This document shows positions 8,546 to 33,859 of a DNA stretch of 37,790 nt, in pieces; position 1 is the stretch's first letter; every line of letters starts with the position of its first letter. The position numbers and the translations under genes were made by a program. Source of the DNA: Saprospiraceae bacterium (lineage in GTDB: Bacteria; Bacteroidota; Bacteroidia; Chitinophagales; Saprospiraceae); contig JAHDEO010000010.1 of assembly GCA_020628725.1 (NCBI GenBank), positions 1 to 37,790 on the forward strand, given 5' to 3'. The notes under the pieces are model-generated. The model saw nothing but the letters and a program-made list of their open reading frames with translations. It made no database searches and had not been told where the DNA came from.

Positions 8546-8596
8546 GACTCGCATCCCAACTACGGACTATCGACCATCGACTATGGACTAATAAAC
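8546..8596 (+). repeat. Degenerate heptamer array in the pdhB leader
   Basis: ACTACGG ACTATCG ACCATCG ACTATGG ACTAATA. Confidence 0.75.
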
Positions 8597-9577: not shown

Positions 9578-9582
9578 TTTTA

Positions 9583-9671
9583 ATGGATGATGGATAACGA
9601 ATAATGGATAATATTTAATTTTCGCTATGCGAAAATCCTGCATTAGTCGTTATCCATTATCCGTTATTGAT
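9583..9671. repeat. Heptamer-word inverted repeat with apical mini-hairpin; possible terminator after pdhB
   Basis: Left ATAACGAATAATGGATAA(T) from 9594 pairs with right 9650-9667 (17/18). Perfect hairpin ATTTTCGC-TAT-GCGAAAAT at 9618-9636 in the centre. Confidence 0.85.
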
Positions 9672-10522: not shown

Positions 10523-10562
10523 TTTCAAATAACCAATCACCATTTACCAGTCACCAAATAAA
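10523..10562 (+). repeat. Degenerate heptamer array upstream of ggt
   Basis: ATAACCA ATCACCA TTTACCA GTCACCA AATAAAT immediately before the ATG at 10565. Confidence 0.65.
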
Positions 10563-14680: not shown

Positions 14681-15670
14681 ATGATGGATTCACTCATCCG
14701 CGAATTTCCCGAACAACTCCGAGAAGCAATCGAAATTGGCGAAGCCGCTAAAATCAAAAAATACAAACCTTCCATTCATCATGTACTCGTATGCGGATTA
14801 GGTGGTTCGGGTATTGGTGGTACTTTTATTAAGGAACTGATTGAAAAAGAGAGCAATATACCTGTTTTAGTAAATAAAGGTTATAATCTCCCTGGCTATG
14901 TAGGCGAAAATACTTTAGCTATTTTTTCTTCCTATTCGGGCAATACCGAGGAAACACTCATCGCATTTGAAAAGGCACTAAATACGGGCGCAAAAATCGT
15001 TTGCATATCTTCCGGTGGGAAATTAATCGCGGCTGCTCAGGAAAAAGGTCTTGATTATATTCAACTTCCCGGCGGGAAACCAAGTCCGCGTGCGTGTATG
15101 GGCTATTCGATAGTTCAGCAATTATATATTCTCAATAAATTGAATGTAATTGGCGATGATTTAATTAATGCCATCCCAACAGCGGCAGACTTACTTGCAG
15201 ATGAACAAGGTGAAATCATGGTACAGGCTCTTGAAATGGCAAATCATTTGAAGGGTAAAATTCCGATAATTTACACCTCAGAAGGTATGGAAGCTCCAGC
15301 GGTTCGCTTACGCCAACAAATCAACGAAAACTCCAAAATGTTGTGCTGGCACCACGTTGTACCAGAAATGAATCACAACGAACTCGTCGGTTGGCGCAGC
15401 AAAAATGACCAACTCGCCGTTCTCTATCTTCGCAATAAAAGCGACCACGAACGCAATCAAACCCGCATTCGTATCAATCAAGATATTATCAAAAAATACG
15501 CGCCTGTATACGAGATTTTCTCTAAAGGAAATAACAAATTCGAACAGATGATGTATCACGTTCATTTTGGAGATTGGTTGTCGTGGTATTTGTCTGAATT
15601 ACAGGAAGATGTAGATGCGGTTGAGATTGAAGTGATTAACTACTTGAAAGGAGAATTATCTAAGTTCTGA
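14681..15670 (+). CDS. SIS-domain bifunctional phosphoglucose/phosphomannose isomerase
   Basis: 329 aa; HHVLVCGLGGSGIGGTFIKELI, FSSYSGNTEETLIAFEKAL, PAVRLRQQINENSKMLCWHHVVPEMNHNELVGW. Confidence 0.93.
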   Translation: MMDSLIREFPEQLREAIEIGEAAKIKKYKPSIHHVLVCGLGGSGIGGTFIKELIEKESNIPVLVNKGYNLPGYVGENTLAIFSSYSGNTEETLIAFEKALNTGAKIVCISSGGKLIAAAQEKGLDYIQLPGGKPSPRACMGYSIVQQLYILNKLNVIGDDLINAIPTAADLLADEQGEIMVQALEMANHLKGKIPIIYTSEGMEAPAVRLRQQINENSKMLCWHHVVPEMNHNELVGWRSKNDQLAVLYLRNKSDHERNQTRIRINQDIIKKYAPVYEIFSKGNNKFEQMMYHVHFGDWLSWYLSELQEDVDAVEIEVINYLKGELSKF

Positions 15671-15743
15671 TGTGCTGAAGTGCTGACGTACTGATGTGTT
15701 TTCGCAGGTACGTCAGTACGTCAGTACGCCGACACATCAGCAC
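15667..15743. repeat. Octamer-word inverted repeat filling the convergent gap; possible bidirectional terminator
   Basis: CTGATGTG CTGAAGTG CTGACGTA CTGATGTG ... CGTCAGTA CGTCAGTA CGCCGACA CATCAGCA CG; the array starts at the TGA stop of the SIS gene (15668-15670) and ends just before the MarR stop (15747-15749). Confidence 0.85.
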
Positions 15744-15746
15744 GTT

Positions 15747-16175: not shown

Positions 16176-16180
16176 TAAGA

Positions 16181-16295
16181 TGAATGAGTGAGTGAATGAA
16201 TTTTGAATGAATGAATTTGTAATGGGTAAATGAGTAAATGTCATTGACGCATTAGATATTCACTCATTTACTCATTCACAATTCACTCATTCGAG
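16181..16295. repeat. TGAATGAG-type octamer word arrays, inverted pair, overlapping the CDGSH gene stop
   Basis: Left TGAATGAG TGAGTGAA TGAATTTT GAATGAAT ... AATGGGTA AATGAGTA AATG; right CACTCATT TACTCATT CACAATT CACTCATT CG. Confidence 0.75.
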
Positions 16296-16529: not shown

Positions 16530-16567
16530 GTTAATGAGTGAATTATGAATTATGAATGAATGAATGT

Positions 16568-16650
16568 CTAATGCGACAATGCGGTAATGATACAATGCGA
16601 TAATAGGAAAACATTGTAGCATTAACGCATTGTATCATTGTCGCATTATA
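16568..16650. repeat. Octamer-word inverted repeat between the CDGSH and OMP genes
   Basis: TAATGCGA CAATGCGG TAATGATA CAATGCGA TAATAGG vs ATTGTAGC ATTAACGC ATTGTATC ATTGTCGC ATTATAAG; AATGCGACAATG and ATACAATGCG have exact reverse complements in the right arm. Confidence 0.85.
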
Positions 16651-17464: not shown

Positions 17465-17851
17465 TCGTTAATTCGTGATTCATGATTCGTGATTCGCTGA
17501 TATTGGGTTTGTTAATTTATTTGTTTTCTTAGTTAAATATTTGATTATCAGCGCAGTAGGTGGGGGCTGTGTATGAATTATGGTTGAATTGATTAATTTA
17601 TTTTGCATGTAATCAATAATCACATTAATTTTAGGATTTTTTAATGGGGTTATGAAATACGAGTTAACGAGTCACTAAGTATCAGGAACAAAATATATGT
17701 TCTTTCTCGACTTGTTCTTTTTCCTTTAGACTTCTCCAAATTCTCCTTAAATAACTCGGCTATTCGCGTCAAATTTGGCTCGTCTAAAGAAAAAATAACG
17801 ACGCGAAGAAAGAACATTTATTTAATTCCTGATACTAATCACGAATTAACG
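17465..17851. repeat. Nested composite palindrome upstream of the RlpA gene
   Basis: CGTTAATTCGTGATT (17465-17479) is the exact reverse complement of 17837-17851. Inside it, 17678-17707 pairs with 17807-17836 (27/30). Confidence 0.8.
17678..17836. repeat. Structured intergenic element, copy 2
   Basis: AGTATCAGGAACAAAATATATGTTCTTTCT pairs with AGAAAGAACATTTATTTAATTCCTGATACT. Interior TTTAGAC/GTCTAAA and CCAAATT/AATTTGG stems around CTCGGCTATTCGCG. Confidence 0.82.
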
Positions 17852-18860: not shown

Positions 18861-18974
18861 CTATATGGTTCAATTGTTTCATGGTTTGATTGCTTCATTG
18901 ATTCATTATTGTAATGAGTTTTTTGCGAAGTAAAAAACGGTAATAACAATGAAGCAATCGAACCATGAAACAAT
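18861..18974. repeat. Octamer-word inverted repeat with GCGAAGT apical hairpin in the convergent RlpA/TolC gap
   Basis: ATTGTTTCATGGTTTGATTGCTTCATTG (18873-18900) vs 18947-18974, 27/28 complementary; centre TTTTTTGCGAAGTAAAAAA. Confidence 0.9.
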
Positions 18975-18979
18975 AAAAT

Positions 18980-20546: not shown

Positions 20547-23500
20547 ATGAAACGATTGATTTTTTTATTGATGACTGCCTTGTTTTGCGGCTGTCTGTCA
20601 GCCCAATGCCCACAAGGAAATATCACATTGACCACACAACAAGAAGTGGATAATTTTGCTGCGAATTATCCAAACTGTACGGAGCTACTTGGGAACCTTA
20701 GTATTGACGATGATTACACCAGTTCCATCACTTCATTAGCCGGGCTTAGTCAAATCACTGCCGTTGGTGGAGATGTGGATATTATCTACAATGATAACTT
20801 AACGAATTTGACAGGATTAAATAATCTGACTTCTATTGGTGGATATTTGAATATTGACGGTAATGATGGCTTGACGAATCTGACGGGATTGGATAATTTG
20901 AATTCTATTTCCAGATATTTGAGTATTGACGATAACGATGGCTTGACGAATTTGGCAGGCTTGGATAATCTGACTCATATTGGCGGATTCTTGGAAATGC
21001 AATGGAATGATAACCTAATGGATGTCAGCGCATTGGACAATGTTGCATCTTCTACGCTTATAGGCTTAAAAATTTGGCAAAATCCGAAGTTGACAGCTCT
21101 ACCTGATTTTAACAATCTTACGGCTATTATAGGAAGAGTATGGATTGCAGGTAATGATAACTTGACGGATTTTATGGGTTTGGATAATGTGACGACTATT
21201 GGGGGATTTTTGGAGCTTGATTATAATGATAACATAACGGATATGACCGGATTAAATAGTCTGACCTCTATTGGTGAGCATATGCACATTCACGATAATG
21301 ATAATTTGGTTGATTTTAGCGGCATGAATAACCTGACAACTATCGGGGGAGATGTTGAGATTGGAGGGAATAATAGCAGCCTTACCAGTCTCAATGGGCT
21401 TAATAATTTAATGTCTATAAACGGTCATTTACATATCAAGTACAACCCAATAATTAGTGATATAAGCGCATTAGAAAATGTCGATATGTCAAATGTGACT
21501 GATATAGATATTTACGGCAATTCCAATCTTTCCTTTTGTGGCATCACAAGCATCTGTGATTATCTTGAAGCAGGGGGAACATACTACTTTTCAAATAATG
21601 CAACAGGTTGTAATAGCTATGAAGTATATGCCTCATGTGACGTCCAGCCTTCTTGTGATGATGAAACGGTTACATTTACTTCGCAGGCACAAATAGATAA
21701 TTTTTCATCCAATAATCCCAACTGCACCGAAATAGCGGGTAATGTCCATATATATTCTTCTGCGGTAAATTCCGATATCACCAATTTGGACGGACTTAGT
21801 CAGATTACTTCTATCTCAGGGAATCTTATCATTACAAGCAATACCAACCTGAGTACAATAATGGGTTTGAGCAATCTGACTACACTTGGTGGGTATCTTT
21901 ATATGTTGGGTAATTCTACACTGACAAGCCTCGCGGGGCTTGAAAATCTGGATTTTACACCAATTTCTGACGTAACAATCAGAGATAACGATGCGTTGAG
22001 CATTTGCGGACTTGAGGGGCTGTGTGCCTACCTCGAAAATAATGGTTCAGCTACTATTTTCAATAACGGTCCGGGGTGCGATAGTCCCGCAGAGGTATTA
22101 TTATTCTGCAACCCACCTGATGATATAGATATGGACTTTGGCACAAATGGTACCGTTGATATTGCAGGTCACGATGTCACTTGTATGCTCGCGCAACCCG
22201 ACGACAAGTTAGTCATATTTGGTTCAAGTGTCTTACGGCTCAATCCTGATGGTACATTGGATACGAGCTTTGGTGCAAGTGGCGTGGCATCCATAGGCGG
22301 TTTTGAAGGCGTTTTACAACCTGATGGTAAAATCGTCGTCTTGGCAGCCGACCAACTCGCCCGACTCAATGCTGACGGTACATTGGATGCTACTTTTGGT
22401 ACAGGCGGTACACGTCCACTCATTGCTCCTGCCAAAGACATTGCCCTTAGCCTTGACGGAAAAATCGTTACTTCAGATACAGAACTTGTCCGTTATAATG
22501 CGGATGGTTCGGTAGACACTGCTTTTGGGAGCAATGGTATCGTTAGCATTGAAGTACAGGCTTATCATTATGGCGAATATCCCGGTGCTCCACAAGTTCT
22601 AAAGACGTACTATCCCTCCTCCCATGTCGTCGTCAAATCAGATGGAAAAATTGTCGTAGCCGGAGATTTTGCCTATCAATCTCGTTACAATCCTGAGTAT
22701 ATTATTTATTACAATCAGCGACGATGTCTTTTAGGATATAATGCGGATGGTACGAAGGATAGCAATTTCAATGAATGGATAGAGGGTTGGTATCAAGGCG
22801 ATGTATTTAGTTATGTTGGTGATCTGCTATTGTTACCTGATGATGAATTTGTGATGTTGAGCAGCAATGATTTTGAATTGGAGGGCAATTTATGTATGAA
22901 TCAATACGATGCCAATGGTGCATTTATTGACAGTAATTGTACCTACACTTCACTCTGCGGAGATTCCTACTATTACGGTGCATTATGGTCGAAAGCTACA
23001 GTAGCTGATTGCGGTATTTTTGCTTTTGGTGAATACGGCACTATCTTCGGAAATACCTGTAAATTCCTCACACGTACTGATTATGATGGTACACCTTTTA
23101 GTGGATTTGGGGATAATGGCGGTGTTGCACTTCCCGTTGTTGCGGGCACTGAGACAGCAGATATTGCCCTTCAATCCGATGGCGGTATTATCGTTGCGGG
23201 AAATTCGGCAACAGGTATCGTACTCGCTCGCCTCAGTAATGACGAAGCCTGCAATCCCTTATTCTTGCTCACCGAACCACCATCTCCTCCATCTGACCCT
23301 TGCGGCGGAACACCTGCAACTACCGACTCACTTACACACATATTCGACGAAGACTTATTCATCGATGGAGTAGGCTTCGCCAATAATCCAACTGTAACTT
23401 TCACCGACCCTGCTACGCCAGCAGATGCCGTATTATCGGATATTTCGCTCGAATTATATTTTAGATTAAATGGCAATTCATGTGAAAATGAAATCGCCCT

Positions 23501-24926
23501 ACAAATCACCGACCCGGCAGGTAATACGCAACCTTTGACGGCTTATACTACTTGCGATGGCGGCAATGGTTTATATTATGTGAATTTAAATGTCCCTTCG
23601 GGAAATACAACAGGCAGCACAGCCGATTGGCTCGTCGAATTTGACGATACCAACGACCAAAATTCCGGCTATGAATATTCCGTTCGATTTGCCCGTTTAA
23701 ATTATGTTGCAACGACCGGAGGCGGTGGCGAGACCATCGTAAATGAAGTTTCCGACTTTGCCGATTCTGATTTATTTATTGACGGAGTTGGTTTTGCAAA
23801 TAACGGAACATATACCTTCACCGACCCCGGTACACCTGCCAATGCGGTCTTATCCGACATTTCGCTCGAATTATATTTCAGATTAAATGGTGCATCATGT
23901 GAAAATGAAATCGCCCTACAAATCACCGACCCGGCAGGTAATACACAACCTTTGACGGCTTACACCACTTGTGATGGCGGCACGGGTTTATTCTATGTGA
24001 ATTTGGATGTACCAAGTGGAAACACCACAGGCAGTGTAGCCGATTGGGTTGTACAATTTGACGATACCAATGACCAAAATGCAGGTTACGAATACTCCGT
24101 TCGTTTTGGCAGATTAACCTACACGACTACGTATACGGAAGGTGGAGGCGGCATGGCTGTCACTGTAAATGATGAAGTTTCCGACTTTGCGGATTATGAT
24201 TTATTCATTGATGGCGTTGGTTTCGCAAATAACGGAACATATACCTTCACCGACCCCGGTACACCTGCGGACGCAATTTTATCCAATATTTCCCTCGAAT
24301 TATATTTTAGATTAAATGGCAATTCATGCGAAAATGAAATCGCCATCCAAGTCACCGACCCCGCAGGTAATACACAGCCTTTGACTGCCTACACGACTTG
24401 TGATGGTGGCAATGGTTTGTATTATGTCAATTTAGATGTACCAAGTGGAAACACGACAGGCAGCATGGCAGACTGGCTCGTCGAATTCGACGATACCAAC
24501 GACCAAAACTCAGACTACGAATACTCTATCCGCTTCGGTAGATTAACCTATGATGTGGAGTATACAGAGTGCGTACCCATGTTGGTCAATGAAGAAAACA
24601 CATCAGCACATCAGTACATCAACACGTCAGCACAAGAAAACGTCAATTCATCAACTCGACAACTCAACAACTCGTCATTGAAACTCTACCCCGTGCCTGC
24701 AAATCATCATTTGAATGTAGAATATTTTTCGGAAAATACGCACCCGATGAATATTGAAATTCTTTCAAATGAAGGCAAAACTTTGGTGTCAAGTCAGGAA
24801 AATTTACAAGAAGGGATGAATACCATTCAACTGGATATAGCCGACCTTCCCGCAGGACATTATCATATTCGTATGTATAATGCGGATGATATGCAGATGC
24901 AATCTTTTGTAAAAATTACGCCATAG
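20547..24926 (+). CDS. Secreted L-domain-like/leucine-rich protein with delta-60-like propeller repeats, three beta-sandwich repeats and T9SS type A sorting domain
   Basis: 1459 aa; two C-P-x-G...TTQQEVDNFAANYPNCTEL L-domain-like modules with GLDNLTSIGG repeats; LNPDGTLDTSFGASGV repeats; three DLFIDGVGFANN...FDDTNDQN.GYEYSVRF repeats; C-terminal LKLYPVPANHHLNVEY... Confidence 0.92.
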   Translation: MKRLIFLLMTALFCGCLSAQCPQGNITLTTQQEVDNFAANYPNCTELLGNLSIDDDYTSSITSLAGLSQITAVGGDVDIIYNDNLTNLTGLNNLTSIGGYLNIDGNDGLTNLTGLDNLNSISRYLSIDDNDGLTNLAGLDNLTHIGGFLEMQWNDNLMDVSALDNVASSTLIGLKIWQNPKLTALPDFNNLTAIIGRVWIAGNDNLTDFMGLDNVTTIGGFLELDYNDNITDMTGLNSLTSIGEHMHIHDNDNLVDFSGMNNLTTIGGDVEIGGNNSSLTSLNGLNNLMSINGHLHIKYNPIISDISALENVDMSNVTDIDIYGNSNLSFCGITSICDYLEAGGTYYFSNNATGCNSYEVYASCDVQPSCDDETVTFTSQAQIDNFSSNNPNCTEIAGNVHIYSSAVNSDITNLDGLSQITSISGNLIITSNTNLSTIMGLSNLTTLGGYLYMLGNSTLTSLAGLENLDFTPISDVTIRDNDALSICGLEGLCAYLENNGSATIFNNGPGCDSPAEVLLFCNPPDDIDMDFGTNGTVDIAGHDVTCMLAQPDDKLVIFGSSVLRLNPDGTLDTSFGASGVASIGGFEGVLQPDGKIVVLAADQLARLNADGTLDATFGTGGTRPLIAPAKDIALSLDGKIVTSDTELVRYNADGSVDTAFGSNGIVSIEVQAYHYGEYPGAPQVLKTYYPSSHVVVKSDGKIVVAGDFAYQSRYNPEYIIYYNQRRCLLGYNADGTKDSNFNEWIEGWYQGDVFSYVGDLLLLPDDEFVMLSSNDFELEGNLCMNQYDANGAFIDSNCTYTSLCGDSYYYGALWSKATVADCGIFAFGEYGTIFGNTCKFLTRTDYDGTPFSGFGDNGGVALPVVAGTETADIALQSDGGIIVAGNSATGIVLARLSNDEACNPLFLLTEPPSPPSDPCGGTPATTDSLTHIFDEDLFIDGVGFANNPTVTFTDPATPADAVLSDISLELYFRLNGNSCENEIALQITDPAGNTQPLTAYTTCDGGNGLYYVNLNVPSGNTTGSTADWLVEFDDTNDQNSGYEYSVRFARLNYVATTGGGGETIVNEVSDFADSDLFIDGVGFANNGTYTFTDPGTPANAVLSDISLELYFRLNGASCENEIALQITDPAGNTQPLTAYTTCDGGTGLFYVNLDVPSGNTTGSVADWVVQFDDTNDQNAGYEYSVRFGRLTYTTTYTEGGGGMAVTVNDEVSDFADYDLFIDGVGFANNGTYTFTDPGTPADAILSNISLELYFRLNGNSCENEIAIQVTDPAGNTQPLTAYTTCDGGNGLYYVNLDVPSGNTTGSMADWLVEFDDTNDQNSDYEYSIRFGRLTYDVEYTECVPMLVNEENTSAHQYINTSAQENVNSSTRQLNNSSLKLYPVPANHHLNVEYFSENTHPMNIEILSNEGKTLVSSQENLQEGMNTIQLDIADLPAGHYHIRMYNADDMQMQSFVKITP
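22120..23250 (+). other. Delta-60-repeat-like beta-propeller region (approximate bounds)
   Basis: MDFGTNGTVDI...QPDDKLVIFGSSVLRLNPDGTLDTSFGASGV...QPDGKIVVLAADQLARLNADGTLDATFGTGG... Confidence 0.8.
23330..24560 (+). repeat. Three tandem ~410-430 bp coding repeats (P-domain-like beta-sandwich, tentative)
   Basis: DLFIDGVGFANNPTVTFTDPATPADAVLSDISLELYFRLNGNSCENEIALQITDPAGNTQPLTAYTTCDGGNGLYYVNLNVPSGNTTGS.ADWLVEFDDTNDQNSGYEYSVRFARLNY and two near-copies. Confidence 0.9.
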
Positions 24927-25268: not shown

Positions 25269-28200
25269 ATGAAAAATGTGTTTTTTATTCTCTTGACTTT
25301 AATTTTTTGTACATCTATTACTTGGGCGCAATGCCCTACAGGATGCAATTCGGAGACTGAAATTGAATCTGTCTGCCAAACCTTGCCCGACTGCCCTACA
25401 GGAGATGTCATCCTACAAACACAACAAGACATCAACGATTTTGCGGCGATGTATTCCAATTGTACCGAGATAGCAGGCATGTTGAAAATCGGTAAATCAT
25501 CCGGTGGCTTGACTGATATTACTGATATTAGTGCTTTGGATTTCCTCACGTCCGTCGAGTCTTTAGCTATCGAACGAACGCAAACTACTACTACCTTTGG
25601 AGTACACAATTTACAAAATATCAATGGCGATGTAAAAATCGTACTCAATCCGGAACTGACTAATGTCAGTTTCTTATACAATATCACAGAAATTGGCGGA
25701 CAACTGCATATTGGTTATAATAAAGAGATGTATAATTTTCAGGCTTTAAGTACGATAACTTCCTTAGGTAGTTTACGGGTTAATAATAATGCCAGATTGG
25801 AATCTTTAGAACACATAAGTAATCTACAAACTGTCTCGGAAATCATCATTCAAAATAATCCGATATTGACCTCACTCGATGGATTAGATGCTGTAAATCC
25901 TGCCTTATTAAATAACTTGATTATCACTTCGAATCCTTTATTATCCTCTTGCGAAGCAGTTAGTGTTTGTAATTATCTTACAGTAGAAAATGGTTCGGCA
26001 ATCGTCCAAAATAATGCTACAGGGTGCAATACCACCACTGAAATCGAAAACGCTTGTTCCACATTTTCCGGCTGCCCACTTGGAGATGTTGTCTTGACAA
26101 GCCAACAGGAAGTCAATGATTTTCCCTTAATGTTTCCTAATTGTACCGAAATACAAGGCAACCTTGAACTTGGAATCTGGGATTCGCCTATCAATGATAT
26201 TACCGACCTCAGCCCTCTAAGCCAAATAGTATCCATAGCTGGTAGATTGCAGATATTCTCCACATCACTTAGCGATTTGAGCGACCTTGAACAACTTCAA
26301 GAGATGCATGGCTTATACATTTGGTTGAATCCCCAATTGACCACCCTTAGTGCTTTGAGTGATGTAACATCTACCGACGGAACTGTTATCATCGCATACA
26401 ATAAAGAACTCACCAATCTCGACGGACTCAACCAAGTGACTTCTGTTAGCGGATTAACAATTACCAACAACAAAAAACTCGCGTCTATAGAAGCATTAAG
26501 TAATTTGACTACGATGGTCAATGCAAATCCGGGTAATACCATTGACGTCTGGATTCAAAATAACAATGTACTGACATCATTGGAAGGACTCGACAATCTC
26601 GACCTAAATCCCGTAGAAGACCTCCGTATCACTTCCAATCCGCTGCTAACGACCTGTAGTTTTGATAATTTTTGTGATTTTATTGAAAATAATATACCCG
26701 ACCAAGATTATCTGATATTCAACAACGCTCCCGGATGCGACAATCCCGGCGATGTGATGGATAACTGCACGAGTGAACCACCCGTAGAAGACCCATGCGG
26801 TGGTACATCAACGACGGATTCATTGACACTTATTTTTGATGAGGATTTGTATATCGACGGAGTGGGATTTGCGAACAATCCAAATATAACCTTCACCGAC
26901 CCCGCTACTCCCGCTGATGCTGTATTGTCTGATATTCAATTGGAAGTATACTTCAAACTTGCAGGCACTTCATGCGAAGATGAAATTGCCATCCGAGTCA
27001 CCGATCCTGCGGGCAATACGCAATCCCTGACGGCTTTCACCACTTGCAATGGCGGTACCAATTTGTATTATGTAGATTTGAATATCCCTTCGGGAAATAC
27101 AACGGGTAGTACGGATGATTGGCTCGTTGAATTTGACGATACCAACGACCAAAATACAGGCTATGAATACTCCGTTCGCTTTGCCCGTTTGAATTATGTA
27201 GCAACTACGGTAAGTGGAGCTACCGTTGTGCAGGAAGTTTCCGAATTTGCGGATTATGACCTGTATATTGACGGTGTTGGCTTCTTGAATAATGACGAAT
27301 ATACCTTCCCGCACCCTACCACGCCTGCGGGTACTGTATTGTCTGATATTTCGCTCGAATTATACTTTAAAATGAACGGCAATTCGTGCGAGCAAGACAT
27401 CCACTTTAGCCTTCTTTATCCTGACAATAACTCAAGTGCTATACAGGGAAATGTCTTCACGACTTGTATAGGTGGTACAGATTTGTATTACGCAGAAGTG
27501 TATATACCGCCGATAACACTTGAGACAAGTAATTCATCCGACTGGATTCTTCGCTTTAATGATGATAATGACCAAAATGCCGATTACGAATATTCTGTTC
27601 GTTTCGGTAGGATAAATTACAGAACGACCTACACAGAAGGCGGCGGCGGTACGCCCATCACAGTGAATGAACAAGTCTCGGATTTTGCAGATTATGATTT
27701 GTATATCGACGGTACAGGCTTCGCCAATAATGGTAATTATACCTTTGCCGACCCCGGCACGCCTCCTGATGCGACCTTATCCAATATTTCACTTGAATTA
27801 TATTTTAAATTAGACGGCAATTCATGCGAAAATGAAATCGCCCTACAAATCACCGACCCCGCAGGCAATACGCAACCCCTGACGGCTTTCACCACTTGCA
27901 TGGGCGGCACTGAGTTGTATTACGTCAATTTGAATGTCCCTTCCGGCAATACAACAGGCAATCCGGCAGATTGGCTCGTGGAGTTTGATGATACCAATGA
28001 CCAAAATGCGGGCTACGAATACTCCGTTCGTTTCGGCAGATTGACCTATGATGTAGAGTATGTTGAATGTATGGAAATGCTAACAAATGAAAACAACGAC
28101 GATGTACAACAACTCGTCATCAATTCATCAACTCGGCAACTCAACAACTCGTCATTAAAACTTTATCCCGTACCCGCGAATCATCTTCTGAATGTAGAAT

Positions 28201-28403
28201 ATTTCTCAGAAAATTCGCATTCCACAAACATCGAAATCATTTCGAATGAAGGAAAAATAATGATGTCGCAACAGGAATTTATGCAAGAAGGATTGAATAC
28301 CGTTCAACTGGATATTGCAGACCTTCCGGTGGGATATTATTACGTTCGTTTGTATGGTGATGGTGAAGTGCAAACGCAGCCTTTTGTGAAGATTGCCCCA
28401 TGA
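25269..28403 (+). CDS. Secreted L-domain-like modular protein with three beta-sandwich repeats and T9SS sorting domain
   Basis: 1044 aa; two full L-domain-like modules (CPTGDVILQTQQDIND..., CPLGDVVLTSQQEVND...), three FIDGVGF-type repeats (the middle one diverged), LKLYPVPANHLLNVEYFSEN C-terminus. Confidence 0.92.
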   Translation: MKNVFFILLTLIFCTSITWAQCPTGCNSETEIESVCQTLPDCPTGDVILQTQQDINDFAAMYSNCTEIAGMLKIGKSSGGLTDITDISALDFLTSVESLAIERTQTTTTFGVHNLQNINGDVKIVLNPELTNVSFLYNITEIGGQLHIGYNKEMYNFQALSTITSLGSLRVNNNARLESLEHISNLQTVSEIIIQNNPILTSLDGLDAVNPALLNNLIITSNPLLSSCEAVSVCNYLTVENGSAIVQNNATGCNTTTEIENACSTFSGCPLGDVVLTSQQEVNDFPLMFPNCTEIQGNLELGIWDSPINDITDLSPLSQIVSIAGRLQIFSTSLSDLSDLEQLQEMHGLYIWLNPQLTTLSALSDVTSTDGTVIIAYNKELTNLDGLNQVTSVSGLTITNNKKLASIEALSNLTTMVNANPGNTIDVWIQNNNVLTSLEGLDNLDLNPVEDLRITSNPLLTTCSFDNFCDFIENNIPDQDYLIFNNAPGCDNPGDVMDNCTSEPPVEDPCGGTSTTDSLTLIFDEDLYIDGVGFANNPNITFTDPATPADAVLSDIQLEVYFKLAGTSCEDEIAIRVTDPAGNTQSLTAFTTCNGGTNLYYVDLNIPSGNTTGSTDDWLVEFDDTNDQNTGYEYSVRFARLNYVATTVSGATVVQEVSEFADYDLYIDGVGFLNNDEYTFPHPTTPAGTVLSDISLELYFKMNGNSCEQDIHFSLLYPDNNSSAIQGNVFTTCIGGTDLYYAEVYIPPITLETSNSSDWILRFNDDNDQNADYEYSVRFGRINYRTTYTEGGGGTPITVNEQVSDFADYDLYIDGTGFANNGNYTFADPGTPPDATLSNISLELYFKLDGNSCENEIALQITDPAGNTQPLTAFTTCMGGTELYYVNLNVPSGNTTGNPADWLVEFDDTNDQNAGYEYSVRFGRLTYDVEYVECMEMLTNENNDDVQQLVINSSTRQLNNSSLKLYPVPANHLLNVEYFSENSHSTNIEIISNEGKIMMSQQEFMQEGLNTVQLDIADLPVGYYYVRLYGDGEVQTQPFVKIAP

Positions 28404-28630: not shown

Positions 28631-31600
28631 ATGAAAAATGTGTTCATTTCTTTTTTGTTTTTCTTCTTATTAGCAAATGTTGTTCAAGCGCAATGCCCTA
28701 CGGGTAGCTTAGATTTCGTAACCCAACAACAAGTCAATGATTTTGCCGTGCAATACCCTAATTGCACCGAACTATCAGGCAGTGTCATGATTAGCGGACC
28801 GGATATTTTCGACCTGCGATCTTTCAATAATATCACTACGATTGGCGGTTCTTTGCTGATTCTGAACTGCCCTTTTTTGACGCATTTCAATGGCTTTGAA
28901 GCACTCACTCAAATTGACGGTATGCTCAATGTCAGTTATAATGCATCGCTGATAGATATTACGCGTATTGCAGGACCAAATCTTGGTGTGGCAGGAGGTA
29001 TCAGAGTCAATCATAATCCACAATTGACTCAGTGCTACATGAATAGACTTTGTTCCGGTGGTGGTGGTGCGATCTACTTCAACGGAGAAGGCTGCTTCTA
29101 TCCCGCAGAGATATATTATAATTGCGAAGCGGATTATTCTTGTATCAATCGTTATGTGGGAGATTTGGTGCTTAACTCACAGGCAGAAGTGAATAGTGTC
29201 TCTATCGGGTGTTCTAAAATTGTAGGTAGTTTGACCATTAGTGGCGATGATATTGTTGACATTAGCAAATTGAGCAGAATCACAACGATTACCGGCGATT
29301 TGACCATCGAAAACAATCCTATGTTGACCTCTATCGCAGCTCTTGAAGACTTAGATTTTGCGAGTATTCCCAATTTGACCATTCAAAATAATCCGCTGTT
29401 GACCACTTGCGATGTGAGGAGTATTTGCCGTTATGCACAATATGGTGATTCAGCAATTATCACTAATAATGGCACGGGCTGTTCATCTGCATCGGAGATT
29501 ATCGCAGCGTGTAGCGAACAGAGTGCTTGTCCGCCAAATCTGTTTTTTTTCTCACAGATGGGTGTCAACGACTTCCCTAATTCATATCCTGATTGTACGG
29601 AAATTGAAGGGGATTTATATATCGCTTCACAAGACTACGAACTCGTTTCTGATGTCAGCGACCTGACGCCTTTGAGCCAATTGACGAGAATCGGCGGTAC
29701 GCTGAATATCACGGGAAATCCTCTACTACCCAATGTTAACGGATTAGAAAATATTACAATTATAGGTGGAAAAGTTGAGGTCAGTAATAATGATAACCTG
29801 TTGGATATTAATGGCTTGAGTGGAGTTCAGTCGTTTGTTAAAGGTATAAATGTTTCTTATAACTCTTCGCTTAGCGAATGTAGTGTTCCTTTCATTTGTA
29901 ATCATGATACTAATATTTACGTTACTACTTCTTATAATGCCTCTGGATGCGATTCTTATGCCGAAGCACAAAGTGGATGTACCGCTATGCCGTGTCAATC
30001 AGGCGATATTATCCTCAATACCCAACAACAAGTCGATAATTTTGCAGCTACTTATGGCGGCTATTGTTATGAAGGAACGCTTCAAATTGGTAGTACATCA
30101 GGCGGTCTGACGGATATAGACGACCTTAGGCCATTAAGCGACCTTACTTATGTGAATAATTTATCTATACAACGAACAAATCTGCGCGATTTGAGTGGTT
30201 TGGAACAACTCCACGTAGATGATGATTTGACGATTGTATTGAATCCCAATTTGATTAATGTAGATGCCCTAAATTGTATTTCCAACCTTGGTGGGCAGTT
30301 GCATATCGGCTATAATAAAGAACTTGTCACACTGGATGGCTTGAGCGGACTTTCTGCTGCGAATAGTGTCCGAATAAATAATAATAACAAATTAGCATCT
30401 TTGTCGGCATTGGATAATTTGGAGGAAGTTTCTGAATTAATTATTCAAAATAATCCAATGTTGACCTCGCTCAGAGGACTACACGAAGCGCGTGATACTA
30501 CATTAACCAATATAATTATCACATCCAATCCGCTATTAGAAGCTTGTGCTTTTTCAAATATCTGTACCTATCTCTCAAATGACGGTTCAAACATCATTCA
30601 AAATAACGCACCAGGATGTGCCAATTATGCAGACCTTGGGGACATTTGTGGATTTACCGACCCGTGTTACATTGGCAATACCTTAATTGAAAGCCAGCAA
30701 GCATTGAATGATTTTGCGGCGATGTATTCCGGTTGTCCCGAACTAAGAGGCAGACTCGAACTCGGAAAATACACTAATACCGATATCAATGACCTCACTC
30801 CCTTGAGTTTCATCACTTCAATAGAAACATTGGAAATCAATAGAAGCTCTATTAGCAATTTGAACGGATTGGAGCAACTCCAACACATTGATAACCTTAG
30901 TTTTTGGCGGAATAGCAATCTGTCGGATATTAGCGCATTGAGTGGGATTACGAGTATTGACGGCATCCTTGATATCTCTTCCCATGGAGATTTGCTCTCG
31001 TTAACCGGACTCAACCAACTCACTTCTGTAGGTATATTATCCATATCCAGTGTACCGATAAATTCTTTTGTCGGTTTGGAAAATTTGCAGATGGTCAGGA
31101 AAATATATCTTCGGAATAATTATGACTTAACCAGCCTTCAAGGTTTGGAGGGGGTAAACCCTGACCACCTTGAATATTTGAGTATAAGGTCTAATTCTGA
31201 TTTAGTGGTATGCTCATTGCCCAATATTTGTGAGTATCTGTCAAATGGCGGCTTGAATTTCATTCATAATAATTATACGGCACTCGGTTGTCGTTCATTT
31301 GCTGAATTTGAGATAGGTTGTAGTGATGGATGTCCTGCCGGTGATGTCATACTTCAAACACAACAGGAAGTCAATGACTTTGCCGCAACATATCCTACTT
31401 GCACAGAAATACAAGGCACACTTTATATCGGCAAAACCTCCGGCAGCCTGACCGATATTACTGACCTGACCCCGCTAAATCAAATCGAGTCCGTAGGAGG
31501 TATTTCCATTCAACGTACCAAAGTCAGCAATCTTAGTGGCTTAGAACAATTGCAAACCATTGACGGAGACTTGCGAATTGTCTTGAATCCTAATTTGTTG

Positions 31601-33859
31601 AATATTAATGTTTTGAGTGGCGTTGCGTCAGTTGGCGGTCAACTCCATGTTGGTTATAATAGAGAATTGGTTACGCTAATGGGATTAAACGAATTAAATA
31701 CCGTTGGAAGTTTACGTATTAATAATAACAATAAATTAGCAAATTTATCAGATTTGATGAATTTACAAACCGTTCCGGAAATTATTATTCAAAACAACAA
31801 TATTCTGACATCACTCGCCGGCTTGGAAGGTATTAGTTCTGCTGCATTGAATAACTTGACGATCACCTCTAATCCTTTATTATCAGATTGTGCGATTAGC
31901 CCGGTTTGTGAACATATAGGTAATCAAGGCTTCACCCTTATCGGCAATAATACCGGAGATTGTACCACAAGTGTCGAAGTAGGAGCAGCTTGTTCGCCTG
32001 ATCCCGACTGCCCCTTCGGAACAACTTTTTTGACTACTCAACAAGAAGTTAATGACTTTGCAATAATGTATGCGAATTGCAATGTGATACCGGATGCCCT
32101 GCATATTGGCAGTTCATCCGGTAATTTGACGAATATTACAGATATTTCTCCATTGAGTTTTATCACATCTGTCAGCGAAATATCCGTTCAACGCACTCAG
32201 ATTACAAATTTGACCGGCTTGGAAAACCTCCAGAATGTTGATGGAGACATGGTGATAGTCCTCAACCCTTCGTTATTGAATTTGAATGCTTTAAGTAATC
32301 TGTCCAATGTAGGAGGCACATTATCCATTGGGTATAATAAAGAACTCACTACATTGGAGGGACTGCACAATCTCAATAGTACCAGTGATTTATTTGTCAA
32401 ACAGAATAATAAACTTGTATCGCTTGAAGCACTCAGTAATCTTACCTATGCACCTTATCTCAGAATCAACGATAATCCGGTACTACCAAGTCTCGCAGGT
32501 CTGGAAAATGTTGACCATACATCACTCGATTTTGTATGGTTTACCAATAACCCACAATTGAGTATATGCAGCATTGCACCCGTTTGCAACTATCTTGAAG
32601 ACACACCTTCGTCCGGTTACGTTTATGGCAACGCTGCCGGATGTTTGAGTCGGGCAGAGATATTGGATATTTGTGCCGCTTCACCACCGGATGATTGCGA
32701 TACAGCAGCTACTATTGAAACAGAGACACTTTTGTTTGATGACGACTTGTTTATCGACGGTGTAGGTTTCGCCAATAATCCAAATGTTGCTTTCACCGAC
32801 CCGGCTACACCTGCCAACGCAGTATTATCTGATATTACACTGGAATTATTTTTCAGAATAAATGGTACTTCGTGCGAACACGAAATCGACATAAAAGTTA
32901 CCGACCCTGCGGGCAATGTAAATATCTTTTCCGGTTTATTTGCTTCGTGCAATGGTATGGCTGGCGGCTTGTATAATACGACTATCAACATTCCTTCGGG
33001 AAACACGACGGGTAATATAGATGATTGGCTCATTGAATTCAACGATACCAACGACCAAAATACAGATTACGAGTACTCTCTGCGATTTGCCCGTCTGATA
33101 TATACCTCAACTGTGAGCGAAGGGGAAATCATCGCCGATCAAGTCTCCGAATTTGCAGATTATGATTTGTATGTTGATGGTATCGGCTTCGGCAATAATG
33201 ACAATTATACCTTCGCCGATCCCGGTACGCCTGCGGATGCCGTACTTTCAGATATTCAATTGGAATTATATTTTAAATTAAGCGGTAGTTCATGCGAAAA
33301 TGAAATCGCCATACAAATCACCGACCCTGCGGGTAATACGCAGCCATTGACAGCTTTCACAACTTGTATAGGCGGTACGGATTTGTATTTTGTGAATTTG
33401 AACGTCCCTTCGGGCAATACAACAGGCAATCCGGCAGATTGGGTCGTAGAATTTGACGATACCAATGACCAAAATACAGGTTACGAATACTCTGTTCGTT
33501 TCGGCAGATTAACTTATAATACGCAGTATGTTGAATGTATGGAAATGATGGCAAACGAAAGCCCCCAACAACTCAACAACTCGTCAACTCATCAATTCAA
33601 CAACTCGTCATTAAAACTCTATCCTGTACCCGCAAATCATCTTTTAAATGTAGAATATTTCTCAGAAAATTCGCATTCAACAAACATCGAAATCATTTCT
33701 AATGAAGGAAAAATAATGATGTCGCAACAGGAATTTTTACAAGAAGGATTGAATACCGTTCAATTGGACATTGCAGACCTTCCGGTGGGATATTATTTCA
33801 TTCGTATGTACGGCGAAGATGAAATGCAAACGCAGCCTTTTGTGAAGGTTATGCCGTAA
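28631..33859 (+). CDS. Giant secreted protein with seven L-domain-like modules, two beta-sandwich repeats and T9SS sorting domain
   Basis: 1742 aa; module starts CPTGSLDF, CINRYVGDLVL, CPPNLFFFSQ, CQSGDIILNTQ, CYIGNTLIESQ, CPAGDVILQTQ, CPFGTTFLTTQ; each closes with a C...IC.YL...GC....C cap. Confidence 0.92.
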   Translation: MKNVFISFLFFFLLANVVQAQCPTGSLDFVTQQQVNDFAVQYPNCTELSGSVMISGPDIFDLRSFNNITTIGGSLLILNCPFLTHFNGFEALTQIDGMLNVSYNASLIDITRIAGPNLGVAGGIRVNHNPQLTQCYMNRLCSGGGGAIYFNGEGCFYPAEIYYNCEADYSCINRYVGDLVLNSQAEVNSVSIGCSKIVGSLTISGDDIVDISKLSRITTITGDLTIENNPMLTSIAALEDLDFASIPNLTIQNNPLLTTCDVRSICRYAQYGDSAIITNNGTGCSSASEIIAACSEQSACPPNLFFFSQMGVNDFPNSYPDCTEIEGDLYIASQDYELVSDVSDLTPLSQLTRIGGTLNITGNPLLPNVNGLENITIIGGKVEVSNNDNLLDINGLSGVQSFVKGINVSYNSSLSECSVPFICNHDTNIYVTTSYNASGCDSYAEAQSGCTAMPCQSGDIILNTQQQVDNFAATYGGYCYEGTLQIGSTSGGLTDIDDLRPLSDLTYVNNLSIQRTNLRDLSGLEQLHVDDDLTIVLNPNLINVDALNCISNLGGQLHIGYNKELVTLDGLSGLSAANSVRINNNNKLASLSALDNLEEVSELIIQNNPMLTSLRGLHEARDTTLTNIIITSNPLLEACAFSNICTYLSNDGSNIIQNNAPGCANYADLGDICGFTDPCYIGNTLIESQQALNDFAAMYSGCPELRGRLELGKYTNTDINDLTPLSFITSIETLEINRSSISNLNGLEQLQHIDNLSFWRNSNLSDISALSGITSIDGILDISSHGDLLSLTGLNQLTSVGILSISSVPINSFVGLENLQMVRKIYLRNNYDLTSLQGLEGVNPDHLEYLSIRSNSDLVVCSLPNICEYLSNGGLNFIHNNYTALGCRSFAEFEIGCSDGCPAGDVILQTQQEVNDFAATYPTCTEIQGTLYIGKTSGSLTDITDLTPLNQIESVGGISIQRTKVSNLSGLEQLQTIDGDLRIVLNPNLLNINVLSGVASVGGQLHVGYNRELVTLMGLNELNTVGSLRINNNNKLANLSDLMNLQTVPEIIIQNNNILTSLAGLEGISSAALNNLTITSNPLLSDCAISPVCEHIGNQGFTLIGNNTGDCTTSVEVGAACSPDPDCPFGTTFLTTQQEVNDFAIMYANCNVIPDALHIGSSSGNLTNITDISPLSFITSVSEISVQRTQITNLTGLENLQNVDGDMVIVLNPSLLNLNALSNLSNVGGTLSIGYNKELTTLEGLHNLNSTSDLFVKQNNKLVSLEALSNLTYAPYLRINDNPVLPSLAGLENVDHTSLDFVWFTNNPQLSICSIAPVCNYLEDTPSSGYVYGNAAGCLSRAEILDICAASPPDDCDTAATIETETLLFDDDLFIDGVGFANNPNVAFTDPATPANAVLSDITLELFFRINGTSCEHEIDIKVTDPAGNVNIFSGLFASCNGMAGGLYNTTINIPSGNTTGNIDDWLIEFNDTNDQNTDYEYSLRFARLIYTSTVSEGEIIADQVSEFADYDLYVDGIGFGNNDNYTFADPGTPADAVLSDIQLELYFKLSGSSCENEIAIQITDPAGNTQPLTAFTTCIGGTDLYFVNLNVPSGNTTGNPADWVVEFDDTNDQNTGYEYSVRFGRLTYNTQYVECMEMMANESPQQLNNSSTHQFNNSSLKLYPVPANHLLNVEYFSENSHSTNIEIISNEGKIMMSQQEFLQEGLNTVQLDIADLPVGYYFIRMYGEDEMQTQPFVKVMP

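Follow-up and report, generated by a model that had tools for sequence, protein, structure and literature searches.

Can a process that acts on the DNA between genes also write the sequence of a protein? The question is raised by a locus in the window, a stretch of 37,790 nt that makes up contig C315 of a Saprospiraceae genome of 7.24 Mb in 683 contigs. There, an array of 8-nt words lies in frame within the gene of a putative secreted protein, directly before its T9SS sorting domain, just as a sequence-only reading of the window had claimed. That reading went on to suggest that intergenic arrays can invade or arise in coding DNA and create interdomain linkers; the suggestion holds in a wider form, with a single DNA process probably forming arrays both in spacers and at those coding joints that tolerate them.

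The Linker Array of Gene 1

The locus comprises three tandem paralogs, referred to here as genes 1–3 (Table 1). Their sorting domains score 26.3–33.9 bits against TIGR04183 (curated cut-off 23) and 36.1–39.7 bits against PF18962 (cut-off 27), and by this domain content the genes are classified as members of the T9SS type A cargo family. In gene 1, the array consists of ten imperfect 8-nt units (24597–24677) in a single unbroken register when read from position 24599, in the order CACATCAG CACATCAG TACATCAA CACGTCAG CACAAGAA AACGTCAA TTCATCAA CTCGACAA CTCAACAA CTCGTCAT. As the whole stretch is one register, its two "halves" merge gradually into each other. The array encodes the peptide ENTSAHQYINTSAQENVNSSTRQLNNSS, followed by LKLYPVPANHH, and is directly N-terminal of the Por_Secre_tail domain (PF18962). 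Upstream of the linker, a 429-nt tandem repeat of 2.8 copies (positions 23355–24550 of the window) encodes repeated beta-rich domains.

The array matches itself at 50 of 80 positions at lag 8, compared with 12 matches at lag 7 and 9 at lag 9. Synonymous recoding of the linker lowers the lag-8 matches to 29.6 ± 3.7 and codon shuffling to 24.3 ± 4.0, with the observed value attained in 0/5000 cases in either control. The periodicity of the DNA thus goes beyond what the protein sequence requires. The words were also said to be shared with the intergenic array at 15667–15743, which is borne out for ACATCAGCAC, an exact match in both places, but not for GTCAGTAC, which is absent from the coding array; ATCAGTAC and GTCAGCAC are present there. 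The coding array is a single arm, whereas the intergenic array is an inverted pair of arms.

Genes 2 and 3 carry arrays before their sorting domains as well, which the sequence-only reading overlooked. Both surpass the synonymous expectation, the observed values being attained by 1/5000 and 2/5000 recodings, respectively. The linkers of the three paralogs do not differ in length by simple multiples of 24 nt.

AlphaFold2 was run on the last 253 residues of the gene 1 protein together with seven relatives. The resulting model contains two beta-strand regions separated by an unstructured stretch (135–169, pLDDT <50), which covers most of the array-encoded residues 144–172; the array-encoded linker is thus predicted to be unstructured. 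The mean pLDDT of the model is low (59.6), and for this reason only the contrast between the linker and the sorting domain, whose block means are 72–87, is used here.

Table 1. Positions of genes, domains and repeat arrays; plain coordinates refer to the window, and those with an L prefix to other stretches of the genome.
Feature	Position	Strand	Remarks
Inverted pair of period-8 arms	15662..15746		Fills a convergent spacer; CTGATGTG... / ...CACATCAG family; ACATCAGCAC common to the coding array
Intergenic inverted arrays	16180..16292		ATTCACTC / GAGTGAAT word family
Word arrays adjoining AATG-type repeats	16533..16649		AATGCGAC / CATTGTAG; between two minus-strand genes
Intergenic inverted arrays	18865..18977		TTTCATGG / CCATGAAA words
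Gene 1, putative secreted protein	20547..24926	+	Domains: Receptor-L/LRR-like, delta-60 repeat, sorting; start at 20571 in the coding model
Period-8 word array in the gene 1 linker	24594..24680	+	Ten units, CACATCAG grading to CTCAACAA; before the sorting domain
T9SS type A C-terminal sorting domain, gene 1	24684..24926	+	PF18962 residues 1380–1451; TIGR04183 residues 1380–1456
Gene 2, tandem paralog	25269..28403	+	C-terminal arrangement as in gene 1
Period-8 array, gene 2	28105..28153	+	CAACTCNN words; joint equivalent to that of gene 1
Gene 3, tandem paralog	28631..33859	+	C-terminal arrangement as in gene 1
Period-8 array, gene 3	33563..33609	+	CAACTCNN words; joint equivalent to that of gene 1
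In-frame array, T9SS/HYR protein	L064:9992-10076		Period 8
Two in-frame arrays, OmpA-family protein	L060		L060a period 7, L060b period 8
In-frame array, group-1 glycosyltransferase	L128:1491-1555		Period 7; between its two domains
In-frame array, HTTM/gamma-carboxylase-like protein	L156:2289-2336		Period 7; between its two domains
In-frame array, PMT-like membrane protein	L087		Period 7; weaker coding score
In-frame array, 371-aa protein	L150		Period 8; beside N-terminal hydrophobic segment

Sorting-Domain Linkers Across the Genome

If the arrays were tied to T9SS, other sorting-domain linkers should bear them, and the sequence-only reading had named a lack of periodicity in those linkers as the result that would count against it. 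Such a lack is what was found: among the 150 top-scoring sorting domains of the genome, none of the 142 others with sequence at hand has a lag-7 or lag-8 array in its linker. Outside genes 1–3, a single distantly related gene is positive, and a further paralog on contig C448 is probably so, judging from site positions. As 0/142 other linkers have an array, the arrays are not a T9SS trait, a T9SS-specific linker mechanism is ruled out, and array-derived linkers are exceptional for the T9SS type A sorting-domain family (TIGR04183/PF18962) in this genome. The result counts against an effect across T9SS proteins and leaves the wider claim untouched. That the exact sequence of a linker should be of little importance before a T9SS sorting domain is plausible, because PorU reportedly cleaves that domain independently of sequence (PMC4804311).

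A Genome-Wide Class of Intergenic Arrays

The wider class was characterised in a 1.8-Mb sample of 141 stretches, with genes called by a home-made Markov gene caller. Short-lag self-similarity in this sample lies mostly at 6–9 nt and multiples thereof. Intergenic hits amount to 97, 414, 191 and 26 per Mb at lags 6, 7, 8 and 9, respectively, with none at lags 10, 13, 17 or 20, whereas lags 7 and 8 give 6–10 hits per Mb in coding DNA. Contigs were sampled partly because they contain sorting domains or CAACTC sites, and these densities are therefore a biased genome average. About a quarter of the spacers of 40–400 bp (159/632) contain an array. The 383 intergenic arrays fall into 125 word classes with periods of 7 and 8, and inverted pairs predominate: of 96 adjacent pairs with the same period, 81 are inverted and 4 are direct. 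In 80 of the 81 inverted pairs, polarity is constant inside a word family (for example, always GAGTTG...CAACTC). The order of units in the two arms is unmirrored, with 46/81 pairs outscoring their own shuffled version, which lends no support to the idea that one arm was copied from its partner by snap-back. Stop-codon cassettes are ruled out on inspection as the cause of polarity, since the sense stops of the CGGGTT family lie in the other arm and the word AAATTCC is stop-free on both strands.

Array edges cluster at gene ends: 114 fall between −12 and +11 nt relative to a stop codon, and edges crowd at start codons too. Arrays also contain 63 stop codons. Array density is similar across all gene orientations, which rules out transcription termination as the sole role. 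Loops and edges vary among copies of one word family, and no conserved ends were seen. In all the contigs sampled, there are entire spacers made up of two inverted word arrays and a short loop (L063:1183-1278 and L126:12662-12744, for example). At L099:9518-9672, inverted arrays are nested, with ATGAGTGA-type units outside and AATGCGAT-type units inside, as if one had arisen inside the other. Several convergent spacers (such as L086:2181-2254 and L129:9960-10051) have a small terminator-like stem, TTTTCGC-GAA-GCGAAAA, at the apex between the arms. Further period-7 arrays occur in or beside spacers of the window, at 8559-8590 (GACTATC), 9581-9612 (TAATGGA), 10528-10557 (AATCACC) and 17471-17501 (ATTCGTG).

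Coding Arrays and the Shared Dictionary of Words

In-frame arrays occur in several unrelated proteins outside the window (Table 1, a list that leaves out arrays at gene edges). Each coding copy is a single arm located at a flexible joint or loop of the protein; it lacks a second arm and a hairpin loop, and contains no stops in the frame used. Their words belong to the intergenic dictionary to the extent of 48–100%, compared with 9–31% in column-permuted controls. For the four window arrays, membership is 1.00, 0.95, 0.77 and 0.73 against about 0.1 after permutation, with 0/300 controls attaining each value. L060b (1.00), L128 (0.75), L156 (0.74) and L064 (0.72) are also clear cases, and membership is less strong for L060a, L150 and L087, where 9 to 17 of 300 permuted controls attain the observed value. 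The comparison of linker DNA with intergenic arrays that the sequence-only reading had called for shows mostly common words, and the choice of joints that acquire arrays looks opportunistic.

Species-Specific Words in Related Genomes

The words at a given joint differ between congeners. The hinge of the glycosyltransferase carries GGTGGAC in the species studied here, GAACAAA in G004 and CCAATCA in G002; the array in G005 is faint and was judged by eye. Glycosyltransferases of outgroup genera have a short ordinary hinge of 42–48 nt, and the array-bearing G002 hinge, at 42 nt, is no longer than these. The G003 protein has no array at its hinge but shares one ORF with a second glycosyltransferase (L185, about 1157–1447), the two being connected by CCAATCA words in a very long array and then by units of the CAACACAT/CAACACCC type; the similar fusion in G001 (L184) has no such array. 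Among relatives of the window T9SS family, the arrays are made of CAACACAT (L193), CACATCAG (L199), CAACTCAT (L195) and CACAATAC (L192), and the family member L194 has none.

Three consecutive CAACTCNN words occur at 82 sites in G000, 139 in G002 and 88 in G004, with only 0–4 in G001, G003 and G005, whereas three consecutive CAACACNN words occur at 746 sites in G003, 257 in G005 and 6 in G000. ACTATSG in threes is found throughout the genus. Between congeners (G000–G005), the preferred words are one core base apart, with CAACTC in some species and CAACAC in others; the sites number in the tens to hundreds, and the one-base difference looks like a concerted change. In one of only three orthologous spacers compared, the loop is retained while the arms have changed. 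An assembly artefact is unlikely as the source of the arrays, given that several separate MAGs contain them and that the reading frame is preserved.

Origin of the Arrays

The linker array of gene 1 is best explained, with a probability of roughly two in three, as part of a genome-wide class of fast-changing 7–8-nt word arrays generated by one DNA-level process on spacers and tolerant coding joints. What the data show are the shared words, the positions, the species-specific turnover and the predicted disorder of the gene 1 linker; a process of spacer DNA appears to write protein linker sequence. The excess of DNA periodicity over protein need, the intergenic peak at lags 7 and 8, the presence of arrays in unrelated proteins and the clustering of their edges at stop and start codons all favour this reading. 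Repeated DNA-level events, presumably unit slippage or duplication together with homogenisation among hundreds of copies, would write units wherever selection is weak, chiefly in spacers, as far as the very ends of genes, and at times in coding linkers. As 7 and 8 are not multiples of three, an array of a few units would sample all three reading frames; mainly stop-free word strands would therefore persist in genes, and the inverted second arm would usually be excluded. The product would be a disordered linker whose exact sequence is of little importance and which may be nearly neutral. The proposal that the array class creates interdomain linkers survives in part: the shared words, the unrelated joints, the congener joints with other words beside short ordinary outgroup linkers, and the predicted lack of structure in the window linker speak for it, and a special link to T9SS is unsupported.

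It is unlikely that the intergenic hairpins are instead a transposing MITE- or REP-like family of mobile palindromic elements, with the coding arrays as in-frame insertions of an arm. That polarity is fixed within each word family and that identical words turn up at unlinked loci does hint at shared ancestry or at one recognition system common to the copies, and Rickettsia palindromic elements are documented in frame inside genes (PMC2229807). However, the loops vary between elements without conserved ends, coding copies have neither second arm nor loop, the same joint bears different words in congeners, and the G002 hinge carries its array at outgroup length.

A selected function, in which the arrays would serve as RNA structures or as binding sites, for example tandem sites for a nucleic-acid-binding protein that changes its specificity from species to species, with the coding copies incidental or regulatory, is improbable. 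Concerted species-specific words, fixed polarity, arrays tight against gene ends and the inner terminator-like stem of several convergent spacers would all fit such a function, but a similar array density in every gene orientation and the many word families side by side in one genome would not.

Ordinary protein-level selection for a Ser/Thr/Asn/Gln-rich linker, with the 8-nt period arising incidentally from codon choice and repeated amino acids, deserves almost no credence: the composition would suit a secreted linker and the position before a sorting domain is a tolerant one, but the synonymous and codon-shuffle controls fail to give the lag-8 signal, identical words occur in non-coding DNA, the 142 other sorting-domain linkers have no array, and the glycosyltransferase linker RRWTVDGGWWTTNGERR, of very different composition, has the same kind of DNA array.

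Returning to the single DNA-level process, independent local slippage alone leaves unexplained the same words at unlinked loci and the fixed polarity (80/81) without mirrored order, and the latter combination fits no model tested. A tentative and doubtful extension would be a trans-acting process, active in the genus, which writes and homogenises arrays in hundreds of spacers, keeping hairpin polarity fixed and following a species word list (CAACTC or CAACAC), and whose spill-over into genes would be a continuing source of new linkers.

Comparison with Known Repeat Systems

Each known system shares a part of these features, and none shares the whole. The repeats of archaeal Borg elements (aaTRs; PMC9879509) likewise occur as one kind in ORFs and between genes, change fast, and give rise to disordered stretches when in ORFs, a likeness that extends to gene 1 by prediction, at modest model confidence. 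However, Borg ORF repeats have nearly perfect, locus-unique units divisible by three, whereas the units described here are imperfect, are 8 nt (window, L064, L060b, L150) or 7 nt long (L128, L156, L060a, L087), draw on a genome-wide dictionary common to many loci, and form inverted arms between genes. The TAACTGA heptamer arrays of Beggiatoaceae, Cyanobacteria and some Bacteroidetes (PMC4679880) are also 7-nt direct repeats near gene ends; longer assemblages were reported in a few Bacteroidetes, and in-gene copies were suggested to be tolerable between modules. Those arrays use one fixed word, in contrast to the many word classes, two periods, fixed-polarity inverted pairs and clear coding arrays at joints found here. 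The heptameric repeats of Xanthomonas and Nostoc are 7-nt, genome-dispersed, mostly non-coding and near gene ends, but their words are G-rich and of the quadruplex type, and the part of the report available (PMC4692102) describes neither an inverted-arm architecture nor a role in protein linkers. Rickettsia palindromic elements and other small in-gene elements (PMC2229807) are a mostly intergenic palindromic class that is also found in frame within proteins; their units are 105–146 bp long, whereas the coding copies here are single arms of short words, and the conserved ends and internal sequence of such elements and of MITEs are not seen, as loops and edges vary within a word family.

Implications

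The data point to a repeat system in Saprospiraceae that spans the genome and changes in concert, and no description of it, or of intergenic repeats in this family, was found in the papers searched. Congeners with different word lists at the same joints provide a natural series in which the origin of a disordered linker from non-coding repeats, whose period is not divisible by three, may be followed base by base.
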